From a virus, in the IMG/VR virus record IMGVR_UViG_3300049845_000144, positions 1 through 43,888 of that record: a stretch of DNA of 43,888 bases. One strand, written 5' to 3'. Shown one piece after another: positions 193 to 40,745 of the stretch. Under the pieces are notes generated by a model. It saw only the letters and a list, made by a program, of their open reading frames with translations. It did no database searches and had not been told where the DNA came from. How positions within the stretch are numbered: position 1 is the stretch's first letter; every line of letters starts with the position of its first letter. Both the position numbers and the translations under genes were made by a program.

Positions 193-1362
193 TTAAACAT
201 ACTTCTTAACAATACTCTTGATTCTATCAACCTGACCATCCTTATGTTGGATGTTTTCAACGATACCTTTAACTTTCCTCATAGACTCATTTAAAATACC
301 GTTTGGTGTAACCCCAACACCCTCAAATATAACCTCGTCACCAAAAGTTATTTTGTATGTGTATGTTTGTTTTTCCCTCAAAATATTCAATACAATTTCT
401 TCTGTGTTTTCATTTAGATCTGTTGCTGATACAAACTGCTCCCCATCAAATACATAAGACTCTTTTTTCATGTTATGTGCCCTCAGTGCTTTACGATATT
501 CTGCCATTGCAGCTGCTGTAGCTGCCTTACCTTTTGGTCGTTGTGGTCCTGCTGCCTTTTGTGCAGAACTAACTTTAACTTTCGGAACCATTGGGTTATT
601 GTCTAGTGCTGTGTGTGGTGTTAGTTTAGGTGCACCAGCTGGATGTTCATGTTTATGTGTAATGATTTCTTCTTGATCGGGGTCATAAGACATGCCTCTA
701 GTTCCCTTAACAACACGGGTAACTTTTGCTCTGGCTGCCGCAGCGGCCTGGTCTGCTTTCCTCTTGACACCAGCTTCTTTTTCTTTTGTTGTCATTGTAA
801 ATGATGGGCCGTCATCTGCATCAGCAGTGCGCTTCTTGTTTTTCTTTGGAAACGCTTTATCAAATTCTTGTTGGGCCCAATCAGGTAGTGCCTCATCTAA
901 AATTTCCAATCCCATTTCTTCCGATTCTCTAACCATCTTAACAGTTCCACCGATCTTTTTTGCATGTGCCATTGCACTTTGGCGACCTCTGGCCTGACCA
1001 CCAGTTTCTGAGTGAGTTCCATATGATCTAATATGAACCCCACTAGCATTAAACACACCTAACTTATGAGTTTTACCCTCATCTGGTTTTGGTGAGCCAC
1101 CAGAACTAGACGCACCTGGGTGTGCATATTCGTGTTCAGCAGCCCTTGCTTCCCCGGCCAAAGATTCAGTGACATGATGTTTAGCAATGTAATCTTCTAG
1201 AGAAGTTGGTTTTTCACCCTTCTTTTTCTTTGAGTTGTGGGCCCTAAGACCAGCAATAACATCTGCTGCCTTCAGCCCCGGGATACCTTTTTCCCTTGCA
1301 CTCTCGCGAGAAGCTGCTTTAGCCTCTTCTAATTCTTTGATCCAACTTTCTAGAGTATTCAT
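193..1362 (-). CDS. Putative capsid-targeted, protease-processed internal protein (389 aa)
   Basis: No named family recognised. The protein is charged, low in complexity and rich in Lys, Ala and His. It begins MNTLESWIKELEE, and a similar segment, 'TSLEDYIAKHH', recurs near residue 52. Both resemble the 'SLxxWI' modules of the neighbouring 683-residue polyprotein. The stretch 'GLEILDE' near residue 155 fits the [L/I]-x-E cleavage rule of T4-type prohead proteases. The C-terminal 80 residues look like a small beta-rich domain. The start is fixed by GGAGCTAAAATG, whose ATG overlaps the upstream stop (ATGA), so translation is coupled. Internal head protein is an inference from N-terminus, sites and neighbours. 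Confidence 0.7.
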   Translation of the reverse strand: MNTLESWIKELEEAKAASRESAREKGIPGLKAADVIAGLRAHNSKKKKGEKPTSLEDYIAKHHVTESLAGEARAAEHEYAHPGASSSGGSPKPDEGKTHKLGVFNASGVHIRSYGTHSETGGQARGRQSAMAHAKKIGGTVKMVRESEEMGLEILDEALPDWAQQEFDKAFPKKNKKRTADADDGPSFTMTTKEKEAGVKRKADQAAAAARAKVTRVVKGTRGMSYDPDQEEIITHKHEHPAGAPKLTPHTALDNNPMVPKVKVSSAQKAAGPQRPKGKAATAAAMAEYRKALRAHNMKKESYVFDGEQFVSATDLNENTEEIVLNILREKQTYTYKITFGDEVIFEGVGVTPNGILNESMRKVKGIVENIQHKDGQVDRIKSIVKKYV

Positions 1363-2171
1363 TTTAGCTCCATGTATTTTTGTGTATGTGATGCAAACTT
1401 GGACTTATCCCAGTTTATGCCTGCTTCTGTTGCTTTATTGAACAATCCACCAATAACTTTCCAACCATTAGTAGAATATTTATTACATTTGATGTGATCA
1501 ATTGATTCATTAATGACAACTACTGGATCTTTTGACTCAGTAACAAGACCAACTGAATGTGAAATGATGTTTGCAACTTTCGATTTATTAACTGCTGAGA
1601 ATTTCAAGTTATTGATAATTGCGTGCTCTAACAATGTATCTTCAATCTTACTCATTTCATTTACAACAATGTTGAATTTTGAAAGGTACTTTGTTGCTCT
1701 ATCAAACTCAACCCGATATATGTCAAAATTTTCTGCCAACTGTTTCTCAGATGCACCTAAAAGTTTATCAACACAAACGGCACAAGAGAACAACGCAAAT
1801 TTATCAGATGTTTTTTTGTTCACTAGATTGAACATTTCTGCCAACTCGCGAGTGAAATGTTTTGTTTTGTAGCCCTTGATAATAAACGATTCTTTATAAA
1901 TTTGTGATCGTTTGGCGATTGAACTCTCAGATAGTGTTACATCTTTAACCCATCGCTTGAATGTCTCCCCATCTTTAACTAACGTCACATATGTTGGGCC
2001 GCGGTCAATTATTTCTGCAAGACCTAAATCACATTCAACCATTTGACCGACCTTGAATATTTTTCCACTGATATAAGCTTCTCTTAAGTGGTCAGTTAAT
2101 TTTGGTACAACCTTCTTAACAGGCTCAGTTCTAGAACTTACTTCTAGTAGTATTTGAGATATTTTTTTCAT
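1359..2171 (-). CDS. CTS-bearing virion-associated protein of unknown function (270 aa)
   Basis: The N-terminus MKKISQILLEVSSR has the pattern of the T4 internal-protein targeting sequence: a short amphipathic helix ending in L-L-E, a candidate prohead-protease site. The rest, unlike its neighbours, is an ordinary mixed alpha/beta protein without low-complexity repeats. Residues about 40-75 ('VGQMVECDLGLAEIIDRG') look like a small beta-barrel. No catalytic motif is seen. It ends with an ATGA overlap into the 389-residue gene and follows the 492-residue gene after 25 bases, so it is part of the same late block. The upstream ribosome-binding site is weak (GGAATAA). Confidence 0.72.
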   Translation of the reverse strand: MKKISQILLEVSSRTEPVKKVVPKLTDHLREAYISGKIFKVGQMVECDLGLAEIIDRGPTYVTLVKDGETFKRWVKDVTLSESSIAKRSQIYKESFIIKGYKTKHFTRELAEMFNLVNKKTSDKFALFSCAVCVDKLLGASEKQLAENFDIYRVEFDRATKYLSKFNIVVNEMSKIEDTLLEHAIINNLKFSAVNKSKVANIISHSVGLVTESKDPVVVINESIDHIKCNKYSTNGWKVIGGLFNKATEAGINWDKSKFASHTQKYMELK

Positions 2172-2196
2172 TTATTCCATCAATATAAAAGTTGAA

Positions 2197-3675
2197 TTAC
2201 TTTGTGTGGTCTTTTAAAGATGCCATCTTGCCGTTTGCTTGATGTAACTCTCTTGCATACTTTCTAGCAGCTGGTGCATCATTAAAATGTTGAGTTGCTT
2301 TTTTGTTGTTAGTATGAATTGTGACACCGGCACCTGTTGGGCCGTGATAGTGAACTTCAATTTTATCAACATTATCAACCCAACCTTCGTCTAATACTTC
2401 AACATCTTCTTTCAAACTGTGCAGTGCTTTAATTGCATCCTTTTTTGAATTGTGTTCTGAGTTTGGTGCACCCCAATAATCTTTCTTTTTAACGTCAAAC
2501 GTAGAAATATAATGTTTATCTTCATCTTTATCATGGAAGGCAACATAAATTTTTCCATTCTTTTCTACAGCGGCATGATTATTTTCTGATGGGGTTAAAC
2601 CACCCGAAATCTCAAGCTTTCTTAGTTTGTTTAAAACAGACTCATCTAACTGAAAATCATCAATCTCAACTTCTTCCTTAACACCAGGTAATTCTGGTTT
2701 GCCAATATTGTGCAAGTATGATTTGATTTTGTTTATGTGTGCTTTATGAACTGCAACACCCTTTTCTGTCATCATACCGTGTTTATCTTCTGTCCCGTCT
2801 TTTGGATCAGACATGAAGTGATGTTTTTGCGAACCACTAAATGACTCATCTGGTCTTCTATGAAATAATCCTTGTACTTGCTTTACACCACCGTAATCTC
2901 GGTTACCTTTCCCTGTACCATGCCAACCGTGTATATTAACTGTTCCGTGCACTGGGTGTTCCCATGTATGATCTTCTTGAGCAGATGCTTTGCCGGAGTG
3001 GGCCTTTTTAAACCCCTTAGATTTTAAAATCATATCGAATTCTTTATATGCATTCCTAGAATCAGCGGACATTTGGTCACCGTACGGTCCAGAAGGATAC
3101 CTAGATTCTGATATTGTTTCCTCAGGTAAATTCTTTGCGTCTGTTTTCAATGACTTATCAAATTTGTTCAGATCCTTTTGAACTTCAGACTTTGCATTAC
3201 CTTTGTTGTATGTGTCAGATGTTTCTTTGTTAGCCAACTTCTTCTTAACTAGTGAGTTAATCGTCTCAGCAGATGTTTCTGATTTGACAACTGTATTTTC
3301 GACAAAGTAAGCCTTTCGCGGTATACCCATCTCTGCAATATAAGAATAGTCAGTATCAACTTCTTGCACAGGTTCTTTAGCTACAGTCTTGTCATAATTG
3401 CGGATTTGCTCTAACAAATCAACTGTAACTACTGTGTTTGGTTTTACAAATGCACTTTCGCCCATTTCTTGTCTCCTAAATTTTCTTCCTGCAGCACCAT
3501 CATCGCCCTGTTCTAAAGTCTTATCTGGATGATTGTCAGCGGCCTTTTGTGCTTCACGTCTTTGTGCCATTATTTGCTGTACTTTGGCTCTTGCGGAAGC
3601 TGAAATAGCATCACGTTTAGACTTTTCAGTTTCAACGAATGCTTCTGATAAAATAGTTTTCAATGTCTTTTTCAT
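2197..3675 (-). CDS. Putative internal head polyprotein with CTS and L-x-E sites (492 aa)
   Basis: The frame opens upstream at 3735, but the ATG at 3675 is preferred. It gives MKKTLKTILSEAF, a CTS-like helix ending in L-S-E, and is preceded by AAGAAAG. The body is charged and modular, with candidate prohead-protease sites at 'EIDDFQLDE' and 'EVEVLDE' separating small segments. One His/Gly-rich module ('HGTVNIHGWHGTGKGNRD') resembles a toxin-like or HicA-like small fold by eye, which is weak. The start overlaps the end of the 683-residue polyprotein if the longer frame is used. Function unknown; its place in the CTS block suggests packaging in the head. Confidence 0.68.
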   Translation of the reverse strand: MKKTLKTILSEAFVETEKSKRDAISASARAKVQQIMAQRREAQKAADNHPDKTLEQGDDGAAGRKFRRQEMGESAFVKPNTVVTVDLLEQIRNYDKTVAKEPVQEVDTDYSYIAEMGIPRKAYFVENTVVKSETSAETINSLVKKKLANKETSDTYNKGNAKSEVQKDLNKFDKSLKTDAKNLPEETISESRYPSGPYGDQMSADSRNAYKEFDMILKSKGFKKAHSGKASAQEDHTWEHPVHGTVNIHGWHGTGKGNRDYGGVKQVQGLFHRRPDESFSGSQKHHFMSDPKDGTEDKHGMMTEKGVAVHKAHINKIKSYLHNIGKPELPGVKEEVEIDDFQLDESVLNKLRKLEISGGLTPSENNHAAVEKNGKIYVAFHDKDEDKHYISTFDVKKKDYWGAPNSEHNSKKDAIKALHSLKEDVEVLDEGWVDNVDKIEVHYHGPTGAGVTIHTNNKKATQHFNDAPAARKYARELHQANGKMASLKDHTK

Positions 3676-3691
3676 ATGATCTTTCTTTGAA

Positions 3692-5743
3692 TTATTCTTT
3701 GGCGAAATCTCTTGGGTTACCAGTAACGGCAGCATCTTTAAAGCTCTTCTTTCTCTTTAATGACTCTCTGCTTCTGACTAAATTTAACATGTTCCTAACC
3801 TTTGATTTATCATCTTCACCTTTTCTTACCCGACTAAATCTTTTGTCTATTAATGAACCAACAACACGATCAGATAATTCAGACAATAAAGATGATTCTT
3901 CTAAACCCTTTCCGTACCCGCCTCGGCGATCAGCTTTTCGTTCGTCAGCCCTATCTTGCTCTTCACGCTCTTTTTGTGACGGAACATCTTCGTCATCATA
4001 TTGCTGTGCCTTCTTTGCTGCAATGCGAGCATCAAGGTCAGCTTTGAACCTTTTTTTAGCCTCTAGTCCAGCCTGTGCTTCCTCATGACTACCTGGGCGA
4101 CTTCCGCCACGCGGTCTAGAAGCATGTTTGGAACCTTCTTCTAAATCAGTTTCTTCTTTAACGTTCTTTTTCCCTAATGTCATAACCGCTTTATCCATCG
4201 AAGCAGTACTATAACCATATTTCTTTTGAAAATCCTTTTCCATCTGAGCTATTTTTGTTTTAGAAGGTGACTTAGGAACAATGACCTTAGGTTTCGCCTC
4301 ATCTAATTGTTCTGTTTCTTCATACATCGCACTGGGATCACGACCTTGGGCATATGCACGTCTAACTCGCAAACCTTGTTTGTTTTTCTTAGGTTGACCG
4401 ACGAACAAAAGGCCACCACCTTGATGTGTTGTTCTATCACCAGTTTCATGGTTGATTGTTTCTGCCTCATCGTATGATGTTATCTTTTCTTTTGCTTTGT
4501 GACCTATCTTAGGTGCTAATTCCTCGTGGGTGTATGGGTGCTTCCCATCCTTATGTTGCCACCAACTCTTCTTTTCACCAGGTGTTGATTCTTTGCTGTC
4601 TAACTTATAACCTAGTGAACGTAACTTTTGGTGTAACGGATCGACCGCCTCGGTTAGTTCATCGTCATACTCAACAGATTCATTAGTTTTGGTCATAGCT
4701 TTTTCTATTCTCTTTGATGCTCGTTCGTGCCTTCCTTGCCAACCACTTACGTCTCCGTTATCATCAGAGTTGTTTATTTCCTTATGGGCAGCTGCCATAG
4801 TATCGTGATTTGATTTCCGTAACTTTCCTCGTATGGTTCCTAACACATTAGACCGAACGAACCTACGAACTGAGCTGCCTATCCCTTCATCTAACTCAAC
4901 AGATTCATCAATACCGTGCCAATTCTTAGCATGACCGGTTTGATATACATGCAGCTTCTTTGGGTTCTTTGAATCGCGATGAACGATATGATGGAAGATT
5001 TCTTCATTGCTGCCAGCTTCATCTGGCCCTAAACCCAAATGTTCCTCGTTATCAATACTGTGGTAAGTTCCAATATGCTTTGCTGCAACCTTCTTACCAT
5101 TATGCACATGAGTTATGTTGTGGGCATAAACAATATGAGAAATGTCTCCGATCTTTTCCTTCTCTACTGCTTTATACGCATCTTCGGCACTGATTGACTT
5201 CTTGTGTGCAGAAACTCTTGGTTCTTTGTGATAGTCGCTCCACGACATCTTGCGAACGCGTTTTGGTTTAGCTGCCTTCCATTCTGCATGTTTTGGGTGA
5301 GTTGGATCAGCAGCCGGATGGCGATCAGATCCCATTGGAATAACCTTTGGAGCAATTTCATCTAATTGTTCAACACCTTCTTTAATTATATTTTGCTTTT
5401 CAATCCATTGGTCTAAACTAGTTGATTCTGATCTCATTGAAATACCTCTCTTGGATGCTTTTATTTGGGCTTGCAATCTCATCAACTTATCCTCAAGTCC
5501 CTTTGTTGACTTCCCCGCAGCTCTTTGTTTTTCAATCATTTGTTTTGTCATTGTGGTGTGTATTTGCATATGACCCAATGATTTAGATTCATCTATCTCA
5601 ACACTTTCATTCTGCTTATCATAAAAAGCAGCAATAGCCATCTTTTGAATCTTTTTCTTTGATTTGCCTTTAAATTGTGGTGCATCACTCTGTTGAAAAT
5701 CTTTGATAATATCACCAACAGGTGTGTCCTTTGTAATCGGCAT
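3692..5743 (-). CDS. Multi-site internal head polyprotein (683 aa)
   Basis: Opens MPITKDTPVGDIIKDF and continues with 'FKGKSKKKIQKMAIAAFYDK', a segment typical of T4-superfamily virion proteins of unknown role. The chain is divided by repeated V-E-x-[L/I]-D-E sites: VEIDE (48-52), EQLDE (125-129), VELDE (282-286), ELTE (362-365) and EQLDE (478-482). Each fits the [L/I]-x-E rule of T4 gp21-type prohead protease. The residues after two sites are similar (IAPKVIP, AKPKVIV), as expected for duplicated modules. A CTS-like 'SLDQWIEKQNIIKE' starts near 109. Several modules are Lys/His-rich. Processing into several internal peptides is an inference. The gene follows the virion-like gene at 5810 after a hairpin. 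Confidence 0.72.
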   Translation of the reverse strand: MPITKDTPVGDIIKDFQQSDAPQFKGKSKKKIQKMAIAAFYDKQNESVEIDESKSLGHMQIHTTMTKQMIEKQRAAGKSTKGLEDKLMRLQAQIKASKRGISMRSESTSLDQWIEKQNIIKEGVEQLDEIAPKVIPMGSDRHPAADPTHPKHAEWKAAKPKRVRKMSWSDYHKEPRVSAHKKSISAEDAYKAVEKEKIGDISHIVYAHNITHVHNGKKVAAKHIGTYHSIDNEEHLGLGPDEAGSNEEIFHHIVHRDSKNPKKLHVYQTGHAKNWHGIDESVELDEGIGSSVRRFVRSNVLGTIRGKLRKSNHDTMAAAHKEINNSDDNGDVSGWQGRHERASKRIEKAMTKTNESVEYDDELTEAVDPLHQKLRSLGYKLDSKESTPGEKKSWWQHKDGKHPYTHEELAPKIGHKAKEKITSYDEAETINHETGDRTTHQGGGLLFVGQPKKNKQGLRVRRAYAQGRDPSAMYEETEQLDEAKPKVIVPKSPSKTKIAQMEKDFQKKYGYSTASMDKAVMTLGKKNVKEETDLEEGSKHASRPRGGSRPGSHEEAQAGLEAKKRFKADLDARIAAKKAQQYDDEDVPSQKEREEQDRADERKADRRGGYGKGLEESSLLSELSDRVVGSLIDKRFSRVRKGEDDKSKVRNMLNLVRSRESLKRKKSFKDAAVTGNPRDFAKE
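5437..5439 (-). promoter_or_regulatory. Possible internal start inside the 683-aa polyprotein
   Basis: The ATG at 5437 (codon 103) follows GAGAGG by about eight bases and would begin just before the CTS-like 'SLDQWIEKQNIIKE' module. Independent initiation here would give a shorter product with its own targeting segment. The evidence is weaker than for the internal starts at 11152 and 14423. Confidence 0.3.
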
Positions 5744-5770
5744 TTAGTTATGTCCCATTAATGTTAGTTA

Positions 5771-5806
5771 ATATGGGGTAGCGACTCAATTACCACTACC
5801 CCATAT
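5771..5806 (-). terminator. Hairpin between the virion-like gene and the polyprotein gene
   Basis: An 11-bp perfect stem, ATATGGGGTAG paired with CTACCCCATAT, has a 14-base loop and lies just after the stop of the 270-residue gene. No T-run follows on the minus strand (TAACTAAC), so it may be a weak terminator or an mRNA-stabilising/processing hairpin allowing read-through to the polyprotein gene. Confidence 0.55.
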
Positions 5807-5809
5807 GTT

Positions 5810-6622
5810 TTACGCTTGAACTGTTACAGACTTACCTGCTAATGTACCACCAACAGCAACCGGAGCACTTAGCGCCTTTTCTGACCCATCAGCAGCAACT
5901 TCATATGCTGTTCCATTGTTTAGGTTGAAGTTTGTTGCAGCAATTGCGACGGCTGTTGCATTTGTGTCACCAGCATCTAGTCCGACAGCATAACGGAATG
6001 AATGTGTCAAACCATCAGAACTGGAGTTATACAGCACACCACTCTTTGCTGGAGTTGTTGCACCAGTTAATGTGAATGGATAAGATGCTCCAACTGGTAA
6101 ACGAACTGGCTCACTAGATGTGATCGTGAATGCAATGTAGTCACCTGCCGAAATGTCATAAACGTCTGGACCAGCTTGTGCCACCCATGCACCCAATGCG
6201 AATGTTGCAGGTGTTGCGAAGTCGCCACGAGTCACTGACATATTAGCTTCAGCAAGCATGACTTCAACTAATGTACGGGCACCAGCAACTTTTGACCTTG
6301 CGATACCAGCAGTTGTTTCTCTTAGGTTCCATCCACCAGTATAAACATCAATTCCACCAACAGACGCAGATGTTAGTGCAGCAACATCGTAAGCAGCACC
6401 AGAAGTACCACCAGTAACGGTGACATCTTCAATTAAGTTACCTGCAATCTTCTTAACTGTTAATTTCCTGTCAGCAGACACCCACTTTACAACTTTAGCT
6501 GTGAATCCTGTACCTGTAACTGTTTCTCCGACAGAATAATCACCTGTTCCACCCGCCTTAAATGTGATTGTTCCTTGAAGAACAGATGGGTAAGAACCAG
6601 ATTGTTTTTTAATCATTGTCAT
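5810..6622 (-). CDS. Probable virion structural/decoration protein (270 aa)
   Basis: The composition is rich in Gly, Ala, Thr, Val and Ser, with alternating beta-strand patterns and almost no charge clusters, typical of phage head-decoration or tail proteins. The N-terminal 100 residues contain a Gly/Thr-rich beta repeat ('AGGTGDYSVGETVTGTGF', 'VTGGTSGAAYDVAAL'). No named family is certain. The start at 6622 is set by a strong AAGGAG site five to six bases upstream; a second in-frame ATG lies two codons later. It has its own upstream gap with a hairpin and a late-like octamer, and a hairpin after its stop, as expected for a highly expressed virion gene. Confidence 0.75.
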   Translation of the reverse strand: MTMIKKQSGSYPSVLQGTITFKAGGTGDYSVGETVTGTGFTAKVVKWVSADRKLTVKKIAGNLIEDVTVTGGTSGAAYDVAALTSASVGGIDVYTGGWNLRETTAGIARSKVAGARTLVEVMLAEANMSVTRGDFATPATFALGAWVAQAGPDVYDISAGDYIAFTITSSEPVRLPVGASYPFTLTGATTPAKSGVLYNSSSDGLTHSFRYAVGLDAGDTNATAVAIAATNFNLNNGTAYEVAADGSEKALSAPVAVGGTLAGKSVTVQA

Positions 6623-6651
6623 ATTTTTCTCCTTTTTGTTGAAAATTCGTC

Positions 6652-6669
6652 AGTAACAGGATTGTTACT
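6652..6669 (-). terminator. Small hairpin in the gap upstream of the virion-like gene
   Basis: A 7-bp perfect stem (AGTAACA / TGTTACT) with a four-base loop lies between the 150-residue gene and the virion-like gene. A short T-rich stretch (ATTTTC) follows on the minus strand. It could be a weak terminator or a 5' leader hairpin. Confidence 0.35.
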
Positions 6670-6692
6670 AATCTTATTCCAACTTGTTAATA

Positions 6693-6700
6693 TATTTATC
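6693..6700 (-). promoter_or_regulatory. Late-promoter-like octamer GATAAATA
   Basis: GATAAATA (one mismatch to T4 TATAAATA) lies about 70 bases before the start at 6622, in one of the few sizeable gaps in the late block. It is a plausible late promoter for the virion-like gene. Confidence 0.45.
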
Positions 6701-6702
6701 AG

Positions 6703-7155
6703 TTATTTTTCCTCATCATTGTGTAATGACTCTTTCCATTCCCAAACTGGTGTTGGTTTATAAGGTGCTGGATGTCTCTCATCGTTGTGATTATGAAACA
6801 AATGTACCTGATAAACTTTTCCACCTTCTTTAGCCATCTGAGTCTGAATCATTTTACGAACTTTTCTACCATGATGATCTGTATAAGTAAACCCAGATGA
6901 AGAATGAACTGTTGGATAACCATGTTTATCAACAGTAACTTTATGTACTGACGGATGTGAGTACCCATAATCACCAACATGCTTTCTGTACCATGGATGT
7001 TTAAATAAAGCCTTTGACTTGGTTTTTCCGATTAAATTAAACAGTTCATCAGAACCCATCGGACCGTGTGTTGTGTCCGGTTGAAGTTTTGATTTCTTTG
7101 CCATCTCTAGCAAAATTTCAAACCTTTCTGTTAGAAAATCTGTTAGTTTACTCAT
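6703..7155 (-). CDS. Small CTS-bearing His-rich protein (150 aa)
   Basis: The N-terminus MSKLTDFLTERFEILLEM matches the local targeting pattern, with L-T-E at 8-10 and a second L-L-E at 15-17. The remainder has many His, Lys and aromatic residues ('KHPWYRKHVGDYGYSHPSVH', 'VYQVHLFHNHNDERHP') and no motif I recognise. The ATG overlaps the stop of the upstream DUF7227-like gene (ATGA), so the two are probably co-translated. It is the last gene before the gap preceding the virion-like gene. Confidence 0.72.
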   Translation of the reverse strand: MSKLTDFLTERFEILLEMAKKSKLQPDTTHGPMGSDELFNLIGKTKSKALFKHPWYRKHVGDYGYSHPSVHKVTVDKHGYPTVHSSSGFTYTDHHGRKVRKMIQTQMAKEGGKVYQVHLFHNHNDERHPAPYKPTPVWEWKESLHNDEEK

Positions 7156-8279
7156 ACATGTGCAATTCTTGTTTTTGGATCGTGTGCAACAGCAAAATTT
7201 CCCGCCTTATTAGGATGAACACCTTTCAAATGCAACATTACAACATGACCTGGTTTGTCAAGGAAACGAGCATCCCCGTGACCATCTAAATCATGACTTC
7301 TACCATCACCATCTAATGTTGGATAGTGCTTTCCTGTTTGTTGATCATGCACAATAGTTGGAAGGATATTATGAGGTTTTAATTCTTTCCCGGGTCTCTT
7401 ATTGATTGACCTTGAAACCATTGCAACGTTCCCGCCAGCATCAAGTACTTTTCTGCAATGATGCCAATTTGATTCCTCATGATTAACACCAGTTGAACTG
7501 AATGTTAAATGTAAATTTTTGTGTCCAGGTTCTTTTTTGTTTGCCAGGTTGTCGAGAACTTGCTTGTGTTCCTTAGTGTAGTCATAGAACTGAACATCTG
7601 GGTGTGCTTTACGAAGACCGTGGTACACTTTTTGTGGAATATCAGATGTTGTATTCATGCGAACCGAGTATCCGTAATCACCCGCTTTTTCTGCAAGTTT
7701 CTTTTCTTTGGTTATATGATGATGTAATGCAATTGCCGTATCCTCTGGTGATTTGAACAATGCCTCGGTCTTACGAATTTTGGCATCTTTGACTTGTTGT
7801 GATCTTGCCATTGCACCACTAGTATGAGCAAGACATGCCTCTTTACATTTCGTTGAAGCTTTTGGGCATGTATTGACACCACAAACAATGTGTGCTGGGG
7901 CAAGACTTAAACCCTGCGTGAATATCATTTTACCGTTTTTTGTTCTAATGTGTTCGCCAGTTGAATCTTGAAGTTTATGGTTACCTGCTAAAAGAGAATT
8001 TGGAGCTACCCCGTGGTTAGCTTTTAGTCTAGCATGGGCATTCTTAACCATATCTTTGTATGCTTTTGAACCATGGTCAGGTAGTGCTTCACCGGTGTGG
8101 GGGTTCTTTCCTTCACCGATATTATCGAATGCTCTTTTTACCCTTGCAATTGGTGACTCTTTATGAATTGGTATTGTAGCATCTTCGTTCAACATTTCAT
8201 CTTCATAAACGTCAGACATTAAATGCTCTAGAAACTCATCTAATGGTGTTGAAACAACATAATCTTTGAATGTAATCAT
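7152..8279 (-). CDS. DUF7227-like four-cysteine protein with CTS-like N-terminus (375 aa)
   Basis: Residues about 120-375 match, by memory of the family, a conserved phage/bacterial domain (DUF7227-like). The landmarks are four cysteines C133, C138, C145 and C149 in 'CGVNTCPKASTKCKEACL', followed by 'IRKTEALF', 'VRMNTTSDIP', 'VQFYDYTK' and a late 'DGDGRSHD...DARFLDKPG'. The cysteines suggest a metal or Fe-S site; the function is unknown. The N-terminus MITFKDYVVSTPLDEFLEHL resembles the local targeting sequences, with [L]-x-E candidates up to 'EMLNE' at about 28-32, after which a basic domain starts. Overlaps both neighbours by ATGA. A packaged redox or metal enzyme is an inference. Confidence 0.75.
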   Translation of the reverse strand: MITFKDYVVSTPLDEFLEHLMSDVYEDEMLNEDATIPIHKESPIARVKRAFDNIGEGKNPHTGEALPDHGSKAYKDMVKNAHARLKANHGVAPNSLLAGNHKLQDSTGEHIRTKNGKMIFTQGLSLAPAHIVCGVNTCPKASTKCKEACLAHTSGAMARSQQVKDAKIRKTEALFKSPEDTAIALHHHITKEKKLAEKAGDYGYSVRMNTTSDIPQKVYHGLRKAHPDVQFYDYTKEHKQVLDNLANKKEPGHKNLHLTFSSTGVNHEESNWHHCRKVLDAGGNVAMVSRSINKRPGKELKPHNILPTIVHDQQTGKHYPTLDGDGRSHDLDGHGDARFLDKPGHVVMLHLKGVHPNKAGNFAVAHDPKTRIAHV

Positions 8280-8899
8280 AATGCACCCTCTTTAAACTTT
8301 TTTGTTTTCCCGTCATGATCTACATGATGGGCATGAAATTTTATGTGTGGATATTCTGCTTTAAGATTGTTAAAGTGTTTTAGGTTAGTCTTTGAATCAT
8401 CGTAGAAATGAACGTGGTCATATTTACCAGTATCCAAATGCTTTCTTAATATGACGTTCTTCTTCTCTGCTGGTTTCTGATCACCTTTGATATTTCCAGC
8501 ACGATGTAAATGAATGTCATCCATGTCGATACCGTGCTTCTTGAACTTGTCAAGCACAGGCTTCTTATCGTCAAAATCTTCTCTTGCAGTGTTCATTATG
8601 ATTCGTGATTTGTGGCCACCAGCTTTAATTCTTTTTTGAATCGCTTGGACTTTACGAATCATTGGATGAATTGGAGTGGATTCATCGTGAAACTTTTTAG
8701 AATCTCTAAATTCACTGAAGTCATAATGATGACCATGCTCCAGTTTGTGATCATTAAACTCTTGATTATCGAGAGATCCGACATGGTTTCCATTTTTATC
8801 CTTAACATGAATTTTTGCGTTGGTTTTCATCAATGTTTCGTCTATGTCGAAAACATGAAGGCCCTTTGATTCTAACAGAAATTCTCTAAATGAAATCAT
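8276..8899 (-). CDS. CTS-tagged HAD-family phosphatase (207 aa)
   Basis: The first ten residues, MISFREFLLE, form a CTS-like helix ending in L-L-E. The HAD motif I follows almost at once: 'VFDIDETL' with D18, D20 and T22. Motif II is T104 in 'IIMNTARE', a lysine around 146-147 can serve as motif III, and 'FYDDSKTN' (D167, D168) is motif IV. All catalytic positions of a HAD hydrolase are present, so activity is likely; the substrate (nucleotide, sugar or polynucleotide 5'/3' phosphate) cannot be read. Histidine makes up about 22 of 207 residues, far above normal. Removal of the CTS at E10 would leave the enzyme intact. Confidence 0.83.
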   Translation of the reverse strand: MISFREFLLESKGLHVFDIDETLMKTNAKIHVKDKNGNHVGSLDNQEFNDHKLEHGHHYDFSEFRDSKKFHDESTPIHPMIRKVQAIQKRIKAGGHKSRIIMNTAREDFDDKKPVLDKFKKHGIDMDDIHLHRAGNIKGDQKPAEKKNVILRKHLDTGKYDHVHFYDDSKTNLKHFNNLKAEYPHIKFHAHHVDHDGKTKKFKEGAL

Positions 8900-9360
8900 T
8901 TCTTTTTCGGTGTCATATATGCTCGGTGACTGGCCTCGACGTGGGTTCCGTCAATTAAAGATTTTCTTGCAATTTTACCCAACGATTGCCACCTAGCACT
9001 TTCTTTGTCAGAAAAACTACCTGTTTTGGTTTGAGCATGATGAACCATTTTCTTATCTAGCTCCAACCATTCCTTCTCTAAGTCTGATAATGGCTTCTTG
9101 TGTTGGTAATCATGTTCACGTTGTTTATTGTCGGCATTAACATCAGCTGCATGACTTGTTATCGCATGTTTCTTTGCGGCTTCATATGCAGGAGAAGCAT
9201 TTTTAGTGAAGTCAGTAAATGGGTGTTTGCTGATCTCTTTACCGTCATGATGAACTGTATAGTGCCCGCCACGATCATCATCATTCTCGTGATAATGAAC
9301 TGAATATTTACCTCGCTCAAATGCAGCAGTCTCAGCAATATATTGTTTGAATGAGATCAT
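8896..9360 (-). CDS. CTS-bearing small basic/His-rich internal protein (154 aa)
   Basis: The N-terminus MISFKQYIAETAAFE is the closest match in the window to the T4 internal-protein signal (MKTYQEFIAE), with I-A-E as the predicted cleavage site. Next comes 'KYSVHYHENDDDRGGHYTVH', a short beta segment, then a helical Lys/Glu-rich region. No enzyme motif is seen. The start overlaps the stop of the 528-residue gene and the stop overlaps the start of the HAD gene, so expression is coupled. Probable internal head protein. Confidence 0.76.
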   Translation of the reverse strand: MISFKQYIAETAAFERGKYSVHYHENDDDRGGHYTVHHDGKEISKHPFTDFTKNASPAYEAAKKHAITSHAADVNADNKQREHDYQHKKPLSDLEKEWLELDKKMVHHAQTKTGSFSDKESARWQSLGKIARKSLIDGTHVEASHRAYMTPKKK

Positions 9361-10946
9361 TAATAGTACCCAGGACCTTTCGATGGTTCTCTACTGCGAC
9401 CAGGTTCAAAATAATCACCACCATCAACTTTCTTTAATTTTGTACCACGTTTCTTTCTTATAGCCTCAATTTGTGCATCAATACCTCTGGCAAACTCATG
9501 ATGGTCTGCTAACGACTTATCTTTCATCTTCATAAGTTCTCTGATAGATTTTGAACTTTCGTTTATTTCTGTCTCTTCATTCCACCTACTGTTGCCTATT
9601 TGACCGCTATAGTTTCTGCCATCATCTGTGTCAGTTGGTTCTTCTTGAACAGAAACGGCATTTGGTGAAGCAGATGGTGAATGTGATGGGTTCTCTTTTT
9701 TATGTTTTTTAATTGCAACTCGACAAGCATGTTCTGCGGATCTTGCCTTAACTACATGATGTTCAGTATCCGCCGCGGTTGGTCCATACTCAACTGGCAC
9801 ATCATACGTCTTTAAATCTTTGTGATCTTCCGCCGCATCATAAAATGCTTCTTTCATATGTGCCGGACTCAAGGCACTTTTAGTTACATGCTTCAAATAT
9901 TTTGCTTGATCGGGTGTGATTTCTTTTTTGATCAATCTCATCATTAAGTCGTGGTACCTAGCGCGACTTCTCTCTTTTGTTTTTGGCGTAGAGCCATAAG
10001 TTTTTGACTCTTCAACTTTCTTTAATTTGTCATAATATTTTGGGTCTTCCTTGATGTGATCTCTAGCTATTTCTGCTGCCACCTTTTCATCTGTGGTGTG
10101 CTCCATTTCAATTTTAACACCTTTAGACAATTGGTCTTCAATTTCAGATACAGGTACGTTGTGGTGAGAAGCCAAATCTTCAACACTTAATGTTTTGACG
10201 TCCAGTGATTCTTTTAAGAATCCGATGTGCTCTATATCGTGAACTACATAGCCACGTTTCTTATAAAACTTCTTTGCCCTTTTGATAGCACCATCTTTAT
10301 CTTCTGCATCATGCGGTATGCGAGCTATTCTTTGAATTTTATTCTTTCTGTTTGAAACCGCGGGATCATTAGGATCGGAAACTGTAACTGATACGCGGTG
10401 AACTTTCTTTTTAGCGGCTTCTTGTGCTTTCTTAAATCTACGTTCCCAATCACGGTTTTCGGCATCAGTTGAACCCGAGTCTCTGTTAGGAAACATCTCA
10501 TTTAACTCAACACTTTCTTTCATCGACTTGCGCCAATCATCTTTAGATATTGGGCCTGCGCCGGTGTGATAAACGAAATGGGTGCCACCACGCGTTCCAA
10601 TTCGTGCTTTACCACCCCTGTCAAGAATATGGTTAGCGAATTTTTGTGCACTATCTGGGCTACCTGGAAATGCCTCAATATATTCTCCGCGTTCAGCACC
10701 TTCATACGGGCTTTTGTGCTTTGTAACCTCAATTGCCTCTTTATAAAGTCTAGTTGGAGTATGAACTGCTGCAGGAAACAATCTTTCTGCTTGCTCTTTC
10801 TCCATAACACCAACCCCTTGAACATGAACCGGATCTTTCATTTTAGCTGGTTTAGCTGTCAATGGTTTCTTGGTCCACTTTTTAGCAACATCCTCTTCCA
10901 CTATCAATGACACAATATTGGCAACGTCGTTTATTAAGTTTTTCAT
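9360..10946 (-). CDS. Internal-type polyprotein with DUF5661-like module (528 aa)
   Basis: The N-terminus MKNLINDVANIVSLIVEED is CTS-like, with I-V-E near 15-17. Candidate protease sites recur at 'ESVELNE' and 'ETEINE'. Residues about 252-312 ('LSVEDLASHH...GVKIEMEHTTDEKVAAEIARDH...YYDKLKKVEE') match the DUF5661 pattern found in phage and bacterial proteins, of unknown function. Residues about 80-130 form a separate compact module ('AFPGSPDSAQKFANHILDRG'). The rest is charged and low in complexity. The ATG overlaps the stop of the 708-residue gene (ATGA). Confidence 0.72.
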   Translation of the reverse strand: MKNLINDVANIVSLIVEEDVAKKWTKKPLTAKPAKMKDPVHVQGVGVMEKEQAERLFPAAVHTPTRLYKEAIEVTKHKSPYEGAERGEYIEAFPGSPDSAQKFANHILDRGGKARIGTRGGTHFVYHTGAGPISKDDWRKSMKESVELNEMFPNRDSGSTDAENRDWERRFKKAQEAAKKKVHRVSVTVSDPNDPAVSNRKNKIQRIARIPHDAEDKDGAIKRAKKFYKKRGYVVHDIEHIGFLKESLDVKTLSVEDLASHHNVPVSEIEDQLSKGVKIEMEHTTDEKVAAEIARDHIKEDPKYYDKLKKVEESKTYGSTPKTKERSRARYHDLMMRLIKKEITPDQAKYLKHVTKSALSPAHMKEAFYDAAEDHKDLKTYDVPVEYGPTAADTEHHVVKARSAEHACRVAIKKHKKENPSHSPSASPNAVSVQEEPTDTDDGRNYSGQIGNSRWNEETEINESSKSIRELMKMKDKSLADHHEFARGIDAQIEAIRKKRGTKLKKVDGGDYFEPGRSREPSKGPGYY

Positions 10947-13069
10947 TTGCTGGCCCTTTTCTTTGCTTCAACTTCAGCATAACTGGCTTTCCAATTCGCT
11001 TTGTGTAAGTCATCTAAATGCTTAGTCATGGTTGGGTTATCTTTGTGCTTTTCTTTCACCGCATTCCACTCATTGGCACTTCTATCCCGATCATATGCTT
11101 GAGTTGATGCACCCCAACCCTCCAAAAATTGTTTGAAGTTTGGTTTAATCATTTCTGTCACCTTCTTTCTCGATTTCCTTGGTTTTGGTTGCAATCTTTC
11201 TCGGATAGTGTCACCTATCTTTTTAATCTCGTGATCTTTAATGTGACCAGGCAAGTTAGATTTATAAACAGAATCATCACCCTTCATAATTGAACTTCTA
11301 ATGTCAGACGCATGAGCACCTTCTGGTGTCTTTTCATGACCTTTAACTTCATTTCGTGAAATGACTTTCAGCGATTTGAAGTGATATCCATTACCTTTGT
11401 CATCGAACTTTCCGTTGTTTGCTTTTAATGGTTCACCTAGTGGACCCATTTCATCTTTACCTAATACAACAGTAGCATGTGTTACACCAGATTTGTGTAA
11501 GTGAGCTAAATGATGGAATAGACTTGGTCGATCAGGACTAGCTTGATGAATAATGTTTTTGTGTTCTGGAACTATCTTTTTGAGGAAAGAAGTCTTTTCA
11601 GCACCAGTTAGTGGATTCTTTTTATTGTCCTGTGTGTTGGTTACAATGGCACTTGCTGATCCACCTGTTTGTTTTGCGTGATTTGCTACCGCGCGAACTA
11701 CCTCTGCGTGCATGTTGTGGGGTGGGTTAGCACGAAGGACAGTTGTTGTATGATGAACCTCTTTTTCCTCCTTTAAATCTTTTGCTGCACGTGCTTGGTC
11801 TCTACCGCCACCTTTTGCATTCCAAGCCGCATTTGCCGCATTAAATCCACCGGCGCCACCACGTGGATTCAATTTCTGTGAATTAACCTTTTCATGCGGT
11901 CCGCGTGGTACATATCCCTCAGGTTTCGCTGGAGTGAATCCACCCTTACCGTCTGGTAGTTCGTGTTTGATTGGGTTATGTGAATCTGCCTCATGTGTCT
12001 TTTTCACGTAGTGATTAACAGCAGCAGTCATTGCGTGATGAACTTCAAACGCCTTATTGATTGAGTGTTTGTGTGATTCCACCTCTTGTAGCATACGTTC
12101 CTTCTCTGCACGCTTACTATCTTTACCTTTTTCGGACTTCGCCTTATCAATCTCTTTGTCGTGAGCATCAGATACGAACTTCTTGAAATCTTCGTGTTTC
12201 AATGGTTTGTGTTCTTCACCACCATATTCGCCTTTATTGACTTTGTGATTGACGAACCTATCAGCCAATGCACCATATGAACCGTGACCAACAACATCAA
12301 GGTGGGTCCTAGTCTCAGGATCCTTAATGTGATCGTGCAACACCTTATTGTGGTGAGCCATCTCAGAGTGGTGAATCTTTGGTGCAGCCAAGTTCACGTT
12401 ATAAACATCATCGTGATGCTTAACGTCTTTGCCGTCAACTAAACCGCTTGGCTTATTGAATGACTTATCGAACTTAGTGTGTGATGCAAGAACAATCTTT
12501 GCCTTCTTTAGTTTCTTAATTTCGCGAGGGTCAGTTGTGCTGTTCCTGATAGTGTTTGGTTGCCATGTTGCCTTACCATTTTCGTGCTTAATATCGTTCT
12601 TTGGGTCGGTGGTGTGAATGTCATGCTGAATAATATCCGCATCACCGTGTATTTTATGTGCATGGTCAACCAACTTCGATAGCACTGGGGTTAAATGATG
12701 GCCCTTGCCGTAATGCTTAGCCACATCTTCCTTAGAATATGCTACGCGCTCATTATGAGGAATAGTCTTCGATTCCATTCTACCTTTGTATGCAACACCA
12801 ACTGCATCATGTGGATGCTTTGGGTTGTGGAATGGTGAATCAGGATGATTGCGAACAGTTACAACTGACACACTACCGTCAGTCTTTTTCTGCGGGACAA
12901 TGCTTGGTTTCTTTTGCCCACGATCTTGCATGTGCTTGAACAGCGACATTGCAGCACCGGTTGCATGGGAACCTCTCAATGCGTTGTCTGGCAGATGACC
13001 ATAGTGGCCGTGACTGCCACCAGCCAAAGCCTCATACTTCTCTGAAAGAAACTCCTTGAATGAGATCAT
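10943..13069 (-). CDS. CTS-tagged double nucleotidyltransferase-like protein (708 aa)
   Basis: Begins MISFKEFLSE, a CTS-like helix with L-S-E. Residues about 55-210 follow the plan of a T4-superfamily family (DUF6267-like) with a ligase-type nucleotidyltransferase signature: K-x-D-G at 62-65 ('KKTDGSVSV'), then 'DIIQHDIH' and 'ATWQPNTIRN'. Around residue 450, 'LRANPPHNMHAEVV' resembles the HxGH site of adenylyl/cytidylyltransferases. It is followed by 'NPLTGAEKTSFLKK', 'ATVVLGKDEM' and, near 590, 'ASDIRSSI', which corresponds to the C-terminal S/T-rich motif. The Gly of HxGH is Met here, so activity is uncertain. A C-terminal 69-residue unit starts with a second CTS-like segment. His content is about ten per cent. 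Confidence 0.76.
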   Translation of the reverse strand: MISFKEFLSEKYEALAGGSHGHYGHLPDNALRGSHATGAAMSLFKHMQDRGQKKPSIVPQKKTDGSVSVVTVRNHPDSPFHNPKHPHDAVGVAYKGRMESKTIPHNERVAYSKEDVAKHYGKGHHLTPVLSKLVDHAHKIHGDADIIQHDIHTTDPKNDIKHENGKATWQPNTIRNSTTDPREIKKLKKAKIVLASHTKFDKSFNKPSGLVDGKDVKHHDDVYNVNLAAPKIHHSEMAHHNKVLHDHIKDPETRTHLDVVGHGSYGALADRFVNHKVNKGEYGGEEHKPLKHEDFKKFVSDAHDKEIDKAKSEKGKDSKRAEKERMLQEVESHKHSINKAFEVHHAMTAAVNHYVKKTHEADSHNPIKHELPDGKGGFTPAKPEGYVPRGPHEKVNSQKLNPRGGAGGFNAANAAWNAKGGGRDQARAAKDLKEEKEVHHTTTVLRANPPHNMHAEVVRAVANHAKQTGGSASAIVTNTQDNKKNPLTGAEKTSFLKKIVPEHKNIIHQASPDRPSLFHHLAHLHKSGVTHATVVLGKDEMGPLGEPLKANNGKFDDKGNGYHFKSLKVISRNEVKGHEKTPEGAHASDIRSSIMKGDDSVYKSNLPGHIKDHEIKKIGDTIRERLQPKPRKSRKKVTEMIKPNFKQFLEGWGASTQAYDRDRSANEWNAVKEKHKDNPTMTKHLDDLHKANWKASYAEVEAKKRASK
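11150..11152 (-). promoter_or_regulatory. Internal start (ATG) with ribosome-binding site before a second CTS-like segment
   Basis: The ATG at 11152 (codon 640 of the 708-residue frame) is preceded by AAGGTG about eight bases upstream. It would yield a 69-residue product starting MIKPNFKQFLEG, which resembles the other targeting helices. This suggests a fused or nested small internal-protein gene. Confidence 0.42.
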
Positions 13070-13070
13070 A

Positions 13071-14720
13071 TCAATGACTTGCTGCAGCTAAAACGTTCCA
13101 ACCATGTCCCGCACTTGCAAGGACATTACCTTTTGTTTTTGGACTGTAATGAGCTAACGGAGTGTGTGATCCATCCTTCTCTACTTTATGAATTGTTGTT
13201 CTTTCACCGTTCCTTGTTACTGCATACTTTGTTTTGGAACTATTGAACACTTTTCGCAACGGTGATTCACTTCCGTGTGTTACGGTTGCGCGAGTTCGTT
13301 CCTTCTTATCACCTTGAACGTGTATTTTTGTCCAAGGCATACTAGTTGTTGCAGTCATGTGCTTTTTCAACATAGAACCAATTATCTTATGACCGTCAGG
13401 TTGATTGGTTAAATGACTAATGTGCTTATGTAGTTCTTTTGATAATGCAACTTTGGGTGCCCGACCGTGTTCATTGGCTGTTTTCTCAATTGAAGAATAT
13501 GAACTAACGCCCTCTTTCTTCCTAACCTTATCAATTTCTCTTTTTCTTTCAGCGGCAGTTAAATGACCCATGCCGCATTTATCAGCAACATCTTGACAAC
13601 CCTTCTTTGAAATTTTTGCTGTGTTTAATTTTCTGGTTGGGTGATCTAGATCACCGCCCATATCGATGCCCGGGCCCTTCAATGTGATGTTATTTGACTT
13701 CTTTGATGACTTCAAAGAATAACCTTCATGGTGCTTTTCTGACTTATCGTGTGACAAGTCAGAATTATGAACCTCAACAGCAACGTCAGATGGATTCTCT
13801 TGTGTGTCATTATGTTTTCCGTTAGTAAAACGGCCAATATCACCTGGTTTAGATGTGTGACCAACTTTACTTATTTTTACGTCAGGACCATGTTTTGCTT
13901 TTAAATGTTCCAATGCAGCATCAGCAGCAACTTGACCATGATGTTTTCTTAGTTCTACGTGATCTGGATCTTTACCTTCAGCCAACTTTGCAACTGCTGC
14001 ATGATGTGGTGCAACTTCTGCCTTATGTTCTTCGGAACCATAAGTTCCATGTTGTGCATGTTTGTGGCCTATTAGTCCAATTGCGGTGTGATGTTCTGTT
14101 ATTTTACCTGCTGAATCCGGATCCAACGGTTTGTGTTCTTCATTCAAAACACTTTCTTTTAATTGGTCGGATTCAACATCTTTACCTGATGCTTCCAATT
14201 CTTCTTTAGTTGGGTGCTCGGCATCGTGCCCCCAATGAACCAACTTTGAAATGACTCCCAAATTTTTATTGAAGAAAACAGCATGTCGACCATTTGGATT
14301 ATTGAATAAATGAACATGAACATCGTGCCCATCAGATGTTTTATATTTGTGATGTGGAATTAGGTTGTCAAAACTATGATCATCACCAAAATTTTCCTTT
14401 ATGAATTGCTTAAACTTAATCATATTTCTTTCTCCAAGAGTCTTTGTTTTAGCTGTTCTCTCAATATCAAATCGTTTCCTTAAATCAGATATTGGTGTTC
14501 CATATTGGTCGGTTATTTTGTCACCAACCATTTTTGTTGTTGTTCCTCGCTTAGTCGTAATAGAAAAGTGTCTCTTTCCATTATGTATGTCGATTTTATC
14601 ATGACTTACTAATCCCTTGGAACCTAGTGGACCATCTTTGTATAGGTCCAGTTTTTCACCCGGTTTTAAATCTTGAGGTATCTTTCCCAAAACCTCGTTG
14701 ATCAAAAACTCCAATAACAT
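13071..14720 (-). CDS. Two-module CTS protein with possible nuclease-like segment (549 aa)
   Basis: The N-terminal module (1-99) starts MLLEFLINEVLGK, with I-N-E as a candidate protease site. A second CTS, MIKFKQFIKE, starts at residue 100 with its own ribosome-binding site. 'LKESVLNEEH' near 188-195 is another L-x-E site. Residues about 305-345 contain 'NPSDVAVEV' then 'GYSLKSSKKSNN' (D312, E316, K337), a layout seen in some PD-(D/E)XK restriction-like nucleases; this is only a suggestion. The protein is His/Lys-rich throughout. The start overlaps the upstream stop (TAATG). Confidence 0.7.
   Translation of the reverse strand: MLLEFLINEVLGKIPQDLKPGEKLDLYKDGPLGSKGLVSHDKIDIHNGKRHFSITTKRGTTTKMVGDKITDQYGTPISDLRKRFDIERTAKTKTLGERNMIKFKQFIKENFGDDHSFDNLIPHHKYKTSDGHDVHVHLFNNPNGRHAVFFNKNLGVISKLVHWGHDAEHPTKEELEASGKDVESDQLKESVLNEEHKPLDPDSAGKITEHHTAIGLIGHKHAQHGTYGSEEHKAEVAPHHAAVAKLAEGKDPDHVELRKHHGQVAADAALEHLKAKHGPDVKISKVGHTSKPGDIGRFTNGKHNDTQENPSDVAVEVHNSDLSHDKSEKHHEGYSLKSSKKSNNITLKGPGIDMGGDLDHPTRKLNTAKISKKGCQDVADKCGMGHLTAAERKREIDKVRKKEGVSSYSSIEKTANEHGRAPKVALSKELHKHISHLTNQPDGHKIIGSMLKKHMTATTSMPWTKIHVQGDKKERTRATVTHGSESPLRKVFNSSKTKYAVTRNGERTTIHKVEKDGSHTPLAHYSPKTKGNVLASAGHGWNVLAAASH
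14421..14423 (-). promoter_or_regulatory. Internal start (ATG) with strong ribosome-binding site and CTS
   Basis: GGAGAAAGAAATATG places a good Shine-Dalgarno sequence seven to eight bases before codon 100 of the 549-residue frame. The product would start MIKFKQFIKENF, the local CTS pattern. Either two genes have fused or both forms are made, each with its own targeting signal. Confidence 0.6.
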
Positions 14721-15319
14721 TACTTGTTTATTCCGTAATATTCACCAATTGGGTCATAGTCTCTATAGTACGAATCCCTTGCAGCTTTTTCGATCCGCCC
14801 AGCAGGTTTTCCTGGTTTTTCTATCGCCTTCTTTATTCTACGATCACTAACACGGGATTTTCTTAAATTCTTGTCAGATGGATATCCTGTTGCCATCAAT
14901 TCAGCATCACCTTCTTTTTGGCTAGGTATAACACCTGCCTTTATTGCTGCCCTAATGTGTGCATGTGAGCCCCATGGGCCACCTTTAATTTTCTGACCAG
15001 GTACTTTATAACCTTCACCTTCCTTAAGATCCATGTCTAAAGTATCGATAAAAGCTGATTCTACGATAGCATTGATTTCTGGTTCAGAAAACATTTCACT
15101 ATCGACAATTCCTTGTGCAAATTCTTCCACAACCTTGATATTTTTGTTTCGGCCCCACTTATAAACCAACTTCCTTAGTATTTTTTGGAGAAGGGTTGGG
15201 CCCTGAATTAAATTAGATTGGACTTGATTTTTAACTTTCGCCCTTACAGGAGCTTCACCACTCTCAATAATATTGGTTATAGTGTCAGTAAATTCTTTGG
15301 AAAATGGAGATTTTATCAT
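14720..15319 (-). CDS. Unrecognised late-block protein (199 aa)
   Basis: No family recognised. The first half is helical ('FTDTITNIIESGEAPVRAKV'). The C-terminal half is basic and Gly-rich ('GGPWGSHAHIRAAIKAG', then 'KPGKPAGRIEKAARDSYYRD'), as in many virion proteins that touch DNA. 'SAFIDTLDMDLKEGEG' offers a weak L-x-E site. Unlike its neighbours it lacks a clear N-terminal CTS. It is the first gene after the strong hairpin and late-like octamer at 15346-15388, so it heads the late transcription unit that continues down to 6703. Confidence 0.68.
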   Translation of the reverse strand: MIKSPFSKEFTDTITNIIESGEAPVRAKVKNQVQSNLIQGPTLLQKILRKLVYKWGRNKNIKVVEEFAQGIVDSEMFSEPEINAIVESAFIDTLDMDLKEGEGYKVPGQKIKGGPWGSHAHIRAAIKAGVIPSQKEGDAELMATGYPSDKNLRKSRVSDRRIKKAIEKPGKPAGRIEKAARDSYYRDYDPIGEYYGINK

Positions 15320-15345: not shown

Positions 15346-15388
15346 ATGCCCCGAGATAATATATTTATGGTATATTATCTCGGGGCAT
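15346..15388 (-). terminator. Strong terminator hairpin after the helicase gene
   Basis: An 18-bp perfect inverted repeat (ATGCCCCGAGATAATATA and its complement) has a seven-base loop. It lies 12 bases after the helicase stop, is GC-rich at its base and is followed by ATTTAACC on the minus strand. It separates the replication block from the late block. Confidence 0.8.
15362..15369 (-). promoter_or_regulatory. Late-promoter-like CATAAATA inside the terminator loop
   Basis: CATAAATA (T4 late consensus TATAAATA) spans the loop and adjoining stem of the 15346-15388 hairpin, about 43 bases before the start at 15319. The same octamer occurs at 178-185 and 18765-18772, and an exact TATAAATA sits in a hairpin loop at 40731-40738. 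Confidence 0.55.
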
Positions 15389-25499: not shown

Positions 25500-25522
25500 G
25501 TCTTTCTCCACAACAAGATTCA

Positions 25523-25636
25523 TTATTTATTCTTTTCTTCCCAACGTTTGACAAGTTCACGCACAATATCGATAATAAACGGAGCCACAATGATTAGGCC
25601 CAGAATAATACCAGCAGTTTGAAGTTGTAGTACCAT
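25523..25636 (-). CDS. Small single-span membrane peptide (37 aa)
   Basis: Short reading frame from the ATG at 25636 with AAAAGGACGAATAA upstream. One hydrophobic helix ('AGIILGLIIVAPFIIDIV') is followed by a charged tail ('RELVKRWEEKNK'), the layout of a small membrane protein with a cytoplasmic C-terminus. It sits between the 76-residue gene and the CTS zinc-ribbon gene. Function unknown. Confidence 0.65.
   Translation of the reverse strand: MVLQLQTAGIILGLIIVAPFIIDIVRELVKRWEEKNK
25524..25531 (-). promoter_or_regulatory. Late-like octamer AATAAATA before the CTS zinc-ribbon gene
   Basis: AATAAATA (one mismatch to TATAAATA) lies 25 bases before the ATG at 25499, overlapping the end of the 37-residue gene. 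It could give late expression of a head-targeted protein inside an early block; chance is possible in AT-rich DNA. Confidence 0.3.
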
Positions 25637-40699: not shown

Positions 40700-40725
40700 A
40701 ATGTTTTCCATGGTTAAGTATGCCT

Positions 40726-40745
40726 AAGACTATTTATAGAGTCTT
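40726..40745 (-). terminator. Small hairpin carrying the late octamer in its loop
   Basis: Six-bp stem AAGACT / AGTCTT with an eight-base loop, overlapping the end of the 87-residue gene. Its loop contains most of TATAAATA. It is weaker than the 15346-15388 hairpin but has the same layout. Confidence 0.45.
40731..40738 (-). promoter_or_regulatory. Exact T4-type late promoter TATAAATA
   Basis: TATAAATA is a perfect match to the T4 late promoter element, placed 32 bases before the start of the isolated CTS gene (40699). It overlaps the stop region of the upstream early gene. Confidence 0.7.

Follow-up and report, generated by a model that had tools for sequence, protein, structure and literature searches.

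T4-type capsid-targeting tags likely mark a set of head-cargo proteins in a marine phage fragment, some of them perhaps polyproteins

Results

About ten unrelated proteins of a T4-like phage bear a common N-terminal tag, and some of them are chains of small modules. We consider it likely that these tags are T4-type capsid-targeting sequences on head cargo, with several of the products perhaps being polyproteins. The DNA analyzed (43,888 bases from IMG/VR, hereafter the window) derives from a marine T4-like phage and encodes a gp41-type helicase, UvsX, a B-family polymerase and DNA ligase, all on the minus strand. Cyanophage polymerases are 44% identical to the B-family polymerase of the window, and Megablast of its first 25 kb against cultured phages returned no DNA match.

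The tag was defined as M-x-x-[FYLIWM]-x-x-[FYLIWM]-[LIVMF]-x-E within the first 40 residues, or in short form M-x-x-φ-x-x-φ-[LI]-x-E. This rule matched 8 of the 66 predicted window ORFs, compared with a mean of 0.2 for shuffled N-termini, and eight matches were reached in 0 of 2000 shuffles. We surveyed 81 sequences, namely the window together with helicase-anchored loci, and found the motif at 42 of 1887 near-N-terminal methionines versus 8 of 5224 internal ones (P = 2e-17). The motif was thus about 15 times more common near N-termini, and this bias was also seen when the window was left out (P ~1e-13). A sequence-only reading of this DNA had quoted nine N-terminal or internal peptides and placed them between 193 and 15319. 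All nine are present on the minus strand and seven lie in that range; MISFKDFLSE and MQSFSQFISE lie outside it, in genes 23736-25523 and 40142-40711, respectively. That reading had overlooked the tagged gene at 193-1362.

The cluster, on the minus strand, begins with an untagged gene for a 199-aa protein (14720-15319). It is followed by a gene for a 549-aa protein (13071-14720) that starts with the looser variant MLLEFLINE and has an internal tag, MIKFKQFIKE, at residue 100 (14394-14423). The next product (10943-13069, 708 aa, tag MISFKEFLSE at 13040-13069) contains a domain with K-x-D-G and E-G/K motifs followed by an NMNAT-like cytidylyltransferase domain; in cyanophages these two domains are encoded by separate tagged genes. 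An AlphaFold model of the domain preceding the cytidylyltransferase (pLDDT 80) gave no significant fold in the PDB, and hence a ligase-like reading of its motifs is unproven. A 528-aa multi-module protein (9360-10946) has a looser N-terminus, MKNLINDVANIVSLIVE, that ends in SLIVE, the linkers ESVELNE and EETEINE, and a DUF5661 module (10008-10181). Two smaller tagged proteins are encoded at 8896-9360 (154 aa, MISFKQYIAE, tag at 9331-9360) and 8276-8899 (207 aa, MISFREFLLE, tag at 8870-8899), the latter resembling a HAD phosphatase by a polynucleotide-kinase profile. A tagged HAD-like ORF (MIGFKEFISE) with similar motifs, its kinship judged by eye, is present in the relative G012.

Further along the cluster are a GP88-family protein (7152-8279, Pfam PF17338) with the looser N-terminus MITFKDYVVSTPLDE, a tagged 150-aa protein (6703-7155, MSKLTDFLTE, tag at 7126-7155) and an untagged 270-aa protein (5810-6622) with a weak head-closure-like (Hc2) match, which is possibly a virion surface or neck protein. 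A 683-aa multi-module protein (3692-5743), in which we recognized no N-terminal tag, starts with a module that we call IKDF and has LxE linkers at E52, E129, E286, E365, E482, E536 and E622. In the multi-module protein encoded at 2197-3735 the tag MKKTLKTILSE is at residue 21 (3643-3675), and the internal linkers end in QLDE and VLDE. The last two genes encode tagged proteins of 270 aa (1359-2171, MKKISQILLE, tag at 2142-2171) and 389 aa (193-1362, MNTLESWIKE, tag at 1333-1362), the second with several internal LxE sites. Residues 27-91 of the 270-aa protein match a small domain that, in cyanophages, lies C-terminal to the cytidylyltransferase; in the window this domain has its own gene and its own tag. 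Of the two tagged genes outside the cluster, also on the minus strand, 23736-25523 encodes a member of a PHROG of unknown function with its tag at residue 9 (25470-25499), whereas 40142-40711 has its tag at residue 5 (40670-40699). Searches of Pfam and NCBIfam assigned almost no names to the tagged window proteins.

Many of the cluster genes overlap their neighbors by about 4 bases, a pattern expected from one transcript. The cyanophage late-promoter motif NATAAATA (PMC2984593) occurs 10 times on the minus (coding) strand of the window and 0 times on the plus strand, with 5 of the 10 in intergenic DNA, which makes up 7% of the bases. One sequence that fits this motif, CATAAATA (15362-15369, minus strand), lies 43 bases before the first cluster gene. 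The only exact T4 late-promoter core in the window, TATAAATA (40731-40738, minus strand), lies 20 bases before the tagged gene at 40142-40711.

The rule identifies head proteins in T4

Mutants of the T4 capsid-targeting sequence showed that targeting depends on residues 4 and 7 and processing on residues 8 and 10; the cut by gp21 falls after L/I-x-E (PMC9026906). The window pattern agrees with these data at all four positions: the N-termini of the eight matching ORFs are hydrophobic at 4 and 7, have L/I at 8 and E at 10. As a blind positive control, the unfitted rule was applied to T4, where it matched 5 of 262 ORFs. These were ipII, ipIII, alt, the uncharacterized 61.1 and gene 24, whose product is annotated as being cleaved by gp21. 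Thus, four of the five T4 matches are known gp21 substrates or internal proteins. The start MKTYQEFIAE, which had been attributed to T4 internal proteins, is indeed that of IPII and IPIII.

It had also been proposed that the set of packaged proteins is much larger than in T4. By the same ORF scan, rule matches per 100 kb numbered 18 in the window, 3.0 in T4 and 2.9 in the cyanophage S-CREM2, so that the density is about 6 times that of T4. However, this figure comes from a 44-kb fragment that may be a local hot spot, since a 210-kb relative has 8 matches in all.

Tagged proteins are found in cyanophage virions

The virion proteome of the cultured Synechococcus phage S-CREM2, determined by mass spectrometry, comprises 52 proteins (PMC10665884). 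We translated all 219 annotated S-CREM2 genes and applied the strict rule from residue 1. Six genes matched, and the products of five of them are among these virion proteins (Fisher P = 0.003; P = 1.7e-4 after removal of named structural genes), although this result rests on one dataset and six tagged genes. The five are an SAM hydrolase (MKDFDSFLEE), ORF13 (MKDLHSFLTE), an APH-like kinase (MKRFDAFLTE), ORF136 (MQTFSMFFSE) and a cytidylyltransferase (MKNFSSFLTE). By the same protein list, the association of a looser form of the tag with the virion was not significant (P = 0.08). The S-CREM2 authors considered that the enzymes are perhaps borne in the capsid or perhaps contaminants, and noted that abundant proteins may co-purify (PMC10665884); a tag common to these enzymes argues for packaging over contamination.

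A Cas9-like nuclease detected in the virion (S-CREM2 ORF12, L184 7704-10313) is encoded beside tagged genes and has LRFASFMAE at residues 17-25; judging from this position, the annotated start may be wrong. The cytidylyltransferase family T4-GC190 was also found in S-SM1 virions (PMC3037559). The S-SM2 member of this family starts with MKSFFQFLSE, and the 708-aa window protein contains the same cytidylyltransferase domain. ORF137 and ORF160 of S-CREM2, both among its virion proteins, share modules with the multi-module proteins. We also observed that ORF160 (L185 28342-29235) has GATGFTGAAAPEGPVAGYDPLMGK, a sequence very like that with which the mature major capsid protein begins, GADGFTGAAAPGGPNAGFDPVMIG.

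The matches in T4 and the detection of tagged proteins in S-CREM2 virions make it very probable that these tags are capsid-targeting sequences of the T4 type and that the tagged genes encode head cargo. Packaging by such a tag, as the sequence-only reading had proposed, is therefore well supported by comparison.

Tag spacing and the prohead protease are conserved in relatives

We aligned 22 proteins, picked by homology only, over the first 430 residues of the 708-aa protein, with which the others shared 20-27% identity. Two tag residues, M1 and E10, were nearly invariant, as were the K-x-D and E-G motifs. The homologue of 23736-25523 in the 210-kb relative starts with MKTYKEFIVE, near that of T4 IPIII, and the pT24 homologue of 40142-40711 starts with MVNISEYLEE. 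Thus, on homologues in separate lineages the letters of the tag differ and its spacing is kept.

A prohead protease gene had been expected elsewhere in the genome. None of the genes of the 44-kb fragment matched one, whereas gp21 is encoded by four long relatives and by the 210-kb relative. In four gp21-encoding relatives, the major capsid proteins have LFE/A-, LFE/D- or FLGE/A-type sites near the N-terminus. Given gp21 in five relatives and these sites in four, the specificity of the protease appears unchanged, with the window phage being judged by its relatives.

Modules and LxE linkers

The tagged proteins contain 73 [LI]-x-E sequences compared with 43.7 expected from composition (z = 5), and the excess sits in acidic linkers such as ESVELDE, EGVEQLDE, EETEINE and EDVEVLDE. 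This richness is explained by the proteins that adjoin the helicase in relatives, which are strings of small domains in varying order. At shuffled-module starts, LxE was found in 35% versus 21%. This modular, polyprotein-like build of several products was absent from the sequence-only reading.

The IKDF module is a mobile unit of 35 residues (GDxIKDFQKSDAPQFKGKSKEKR..MAIAA). A copy in the window, GDIIKDFQQSDAPQFKGKS...MAIAAF, is encoded at 5621-5731 on the minus strand and is flanked by LxE. Scans of IMG/VR with the single sequences of the 708-aa (10943-13069) and 683-aa (3692-5743) proteins found no relatives, whereas a short alignment of the IKDF module used as the query recovered 409 candidate stretches. 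In 33 of 40 non-redundant IKDF proteins with enough upstream sequence, [LIV]-x-E was present within 22 residues upstream of the module, compared with 29% at random positions (P = 6e-12). The junction is mostly x-x-E/K-[LIV] and is alike behind an internal linker or an N-terminal tag; examples of the module directly behind a tag are MKSFKEHLNE/KLSPGADVGDW (L119) and MISFFELRE/KLKKGADVGDY (L092). The gp22 of a relative shows EEVLDE/K, and T4 gp22 is cut by gp21 at several places. In an AlphaFold model of an 880-aa multi-module relative (pTM 0.32), seven of nine LxE sites were of low confidence, as was half of the protein.

The module is also present in the cultured phages P-TIM68, Sf-CH8 and SynMITS9220M01, and weakly in Agrobacterium phage Atu_ph07, in which it adjoins a gene annotated as a prohead core protein. 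In SynMITS9220M01 (L190 2907-4807), the module is divided at its first residues between overlapping genes in different frames, which would reflect a sequencing error or a frameshift. In G012, the gp21-gp22-gp23 cluster includes a gene (L082 2401-2874) for a protein, perhaps of the prohead core, that has an LxE start and an IKDF module. Like the 683-aa window protein, proteins of the relatives L099, L110 and L153 have the module at their start and no tag. Such proteins suggest that the IKDF module itself may bind the prohead core, and its gp21 neighborhood in G012 and Atu_ph07 fits this possibility.

Discussion

Our model follows that of T4. Residues 4 and 7 of the tag, aromatic or aliphatic, would bind the protein into the prohead core, and residues 8-10 ([LI]-x-E) would be the cut site of a gp21-type prohead protease. 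The freed cargo would stay in the head alongside the DNA and would probably enter the host with it. One tag would bring a whole multi-module polyprotein into the head, where the prohead protease would cleave its internal linkers.

For this last part of the model, the chances seem to us evenly balanced that several products are polyproteins whose modules the same protease would free at [LI]-x-E linkers inside the head. The fuller scheme, in which one tag or the IKDF module as an alternative core binder would bring in a polyprotein whose modules are cut apart and each delivered into the host, we put at slightly below even. The tag could also be real while the internal LxE linkers are acidic disordered spacers, so that the multi-module proteins act uncut in the manner of polyvalent proteins. 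Injected proteins with several domains of this kind are known (PMC5512222), and LxE, being short, is common in any protein. However, internal linkers and N-terminal tags alike place their final [LIV]-x-E at the same spot before a module, and LxE is enriched at module boundaries, leaving the uncut alternative possible but somewhat doubtful.

Another view is that the tagged proteins help to build or size the head, as do T4 IPIII, gp67 and gp68, and are mostly expelled and inactive in the next host. The IKDF protein of G012 favors this view, being encoded within the gp21-gp22-gp23 cluster at what we take to be, by gene order, about the position of T4 gp68. Against it, many of the cargo domains look enzymatic (cytidylyltransferase and HAD in the window; SAM hydrolase, kinase and Cas9-like nuclease in S-CREM2), as would suit proteins acting in the host, and the tagged S-CREM2 proteins stay in mature virions. 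We therefore regard a purely head-building role as unlikely. Five window genes start with MISF or MITF, so some tags may be copies of one another, and the tag might have no relation to the head, being instead a relic of duplicated genes or exchanged start regions, or an amphipathic helix of a general kind that serves membranes or assembly. This is already disfavored and very improbable, as the rule picks out T4 head proteins that are internal or cut by gp21, as well as S-CREM2 proteins present in the virion, and as homologues in separate lineages keep the spacing of the tag while its letters differ.

The window is thus richly equipped with a device that is already known, the T4 capsid-targeting sequence, and the sequence-only reading was right in substance. 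As in T4 IPI, IPII, IPIII and Alt, a 10-residue N-terminus with the required residues at 4, 7, 8 and 10 precedes unrelated cargo, and a late-type promoter motif is close by. In contrast to T4, cargo in the window is larger and denser per kilobase, includes multi-domain proteins and internal LxE linkers, and is encoded by genes clustered downstream of the gp41 helicase. The virion-associated proteins of S-CREM2 and S-SM1 have the same kind of tag and the same cytidylyltransferase family, but are encoded by separate genes, whereas the window has one fused gene (10943-13069).

Polyvalent proteins (Iyer et al. 2017, PMC5512222) are likewise mosaic, multi-domain and proposed to enter the host with DNA, and their authors liken them to polyproteins. 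The window proteins also combine several unrelated domains in one polypeptide, and their modules are reordered between proteins. Polyvalent proteins often embed peptidase domains, whereas the cuts between small modules proposed here would be made by the prohead protease; Pfam and PHROGs identified no embedded peptidase or other hallmark polyvalent domain in the window proteins. The ejection proteins of phiKZ and SPN3US (protease gp245) resemble the arrangement proposed here in that many head proteins are cut during head maturation. The SPN3US protease has A-x-E specificity and mostly long propeptides (PMC10052503), whereas the window tags are about 10 residues, end in [LI]-x-E and include no A-x-E-type motif with a long propeptide.

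The available portions of the S-CREM2 and S-SM1 virion papers mention no targeting tag, and a literature search outside subscription journals found no paper describing a cyanophage tag or LxE-linked polyproteins. What is new is that the tag can be tied to the virion proteome in cyanophages, that the enzymatic cargo is so broad, and that some of it is probably organized as polyproteins. The ten-residue rule, checked on T4 and on an independent virion proteome, flags packaged effectors among hypothetical T4-like genes. For GP88, DUF5661, the IKDF module and the domain preceding the cytidylyltransferase, it offers a testable prediction of where and when they act, namely within the head and as infection begins. 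Should the linkers be cut, this would represent a phage delivery system in which polyproteins are split inside the capsid, and it would provide a natural template for packing several proteins by means of one tag.

Two further observations concern genes outside the cluster. Between 26303 and 28750 of the window, reading by eye revealed Radical-SAM-like proteins, one of them with motifs resembling those of QueE (7-deazaguanine synthesis), as well as a phosphoribosyltransferase-like protein; together they may hint at modified bases. T4 gene 61.1 (NC_000866 18966-19130; L217 67-231) encodes a 54-aa protein that starts with MKTFKEFIKE, a perfect capsid-targeting sequence, and its product may be an unrecognized internal protein.
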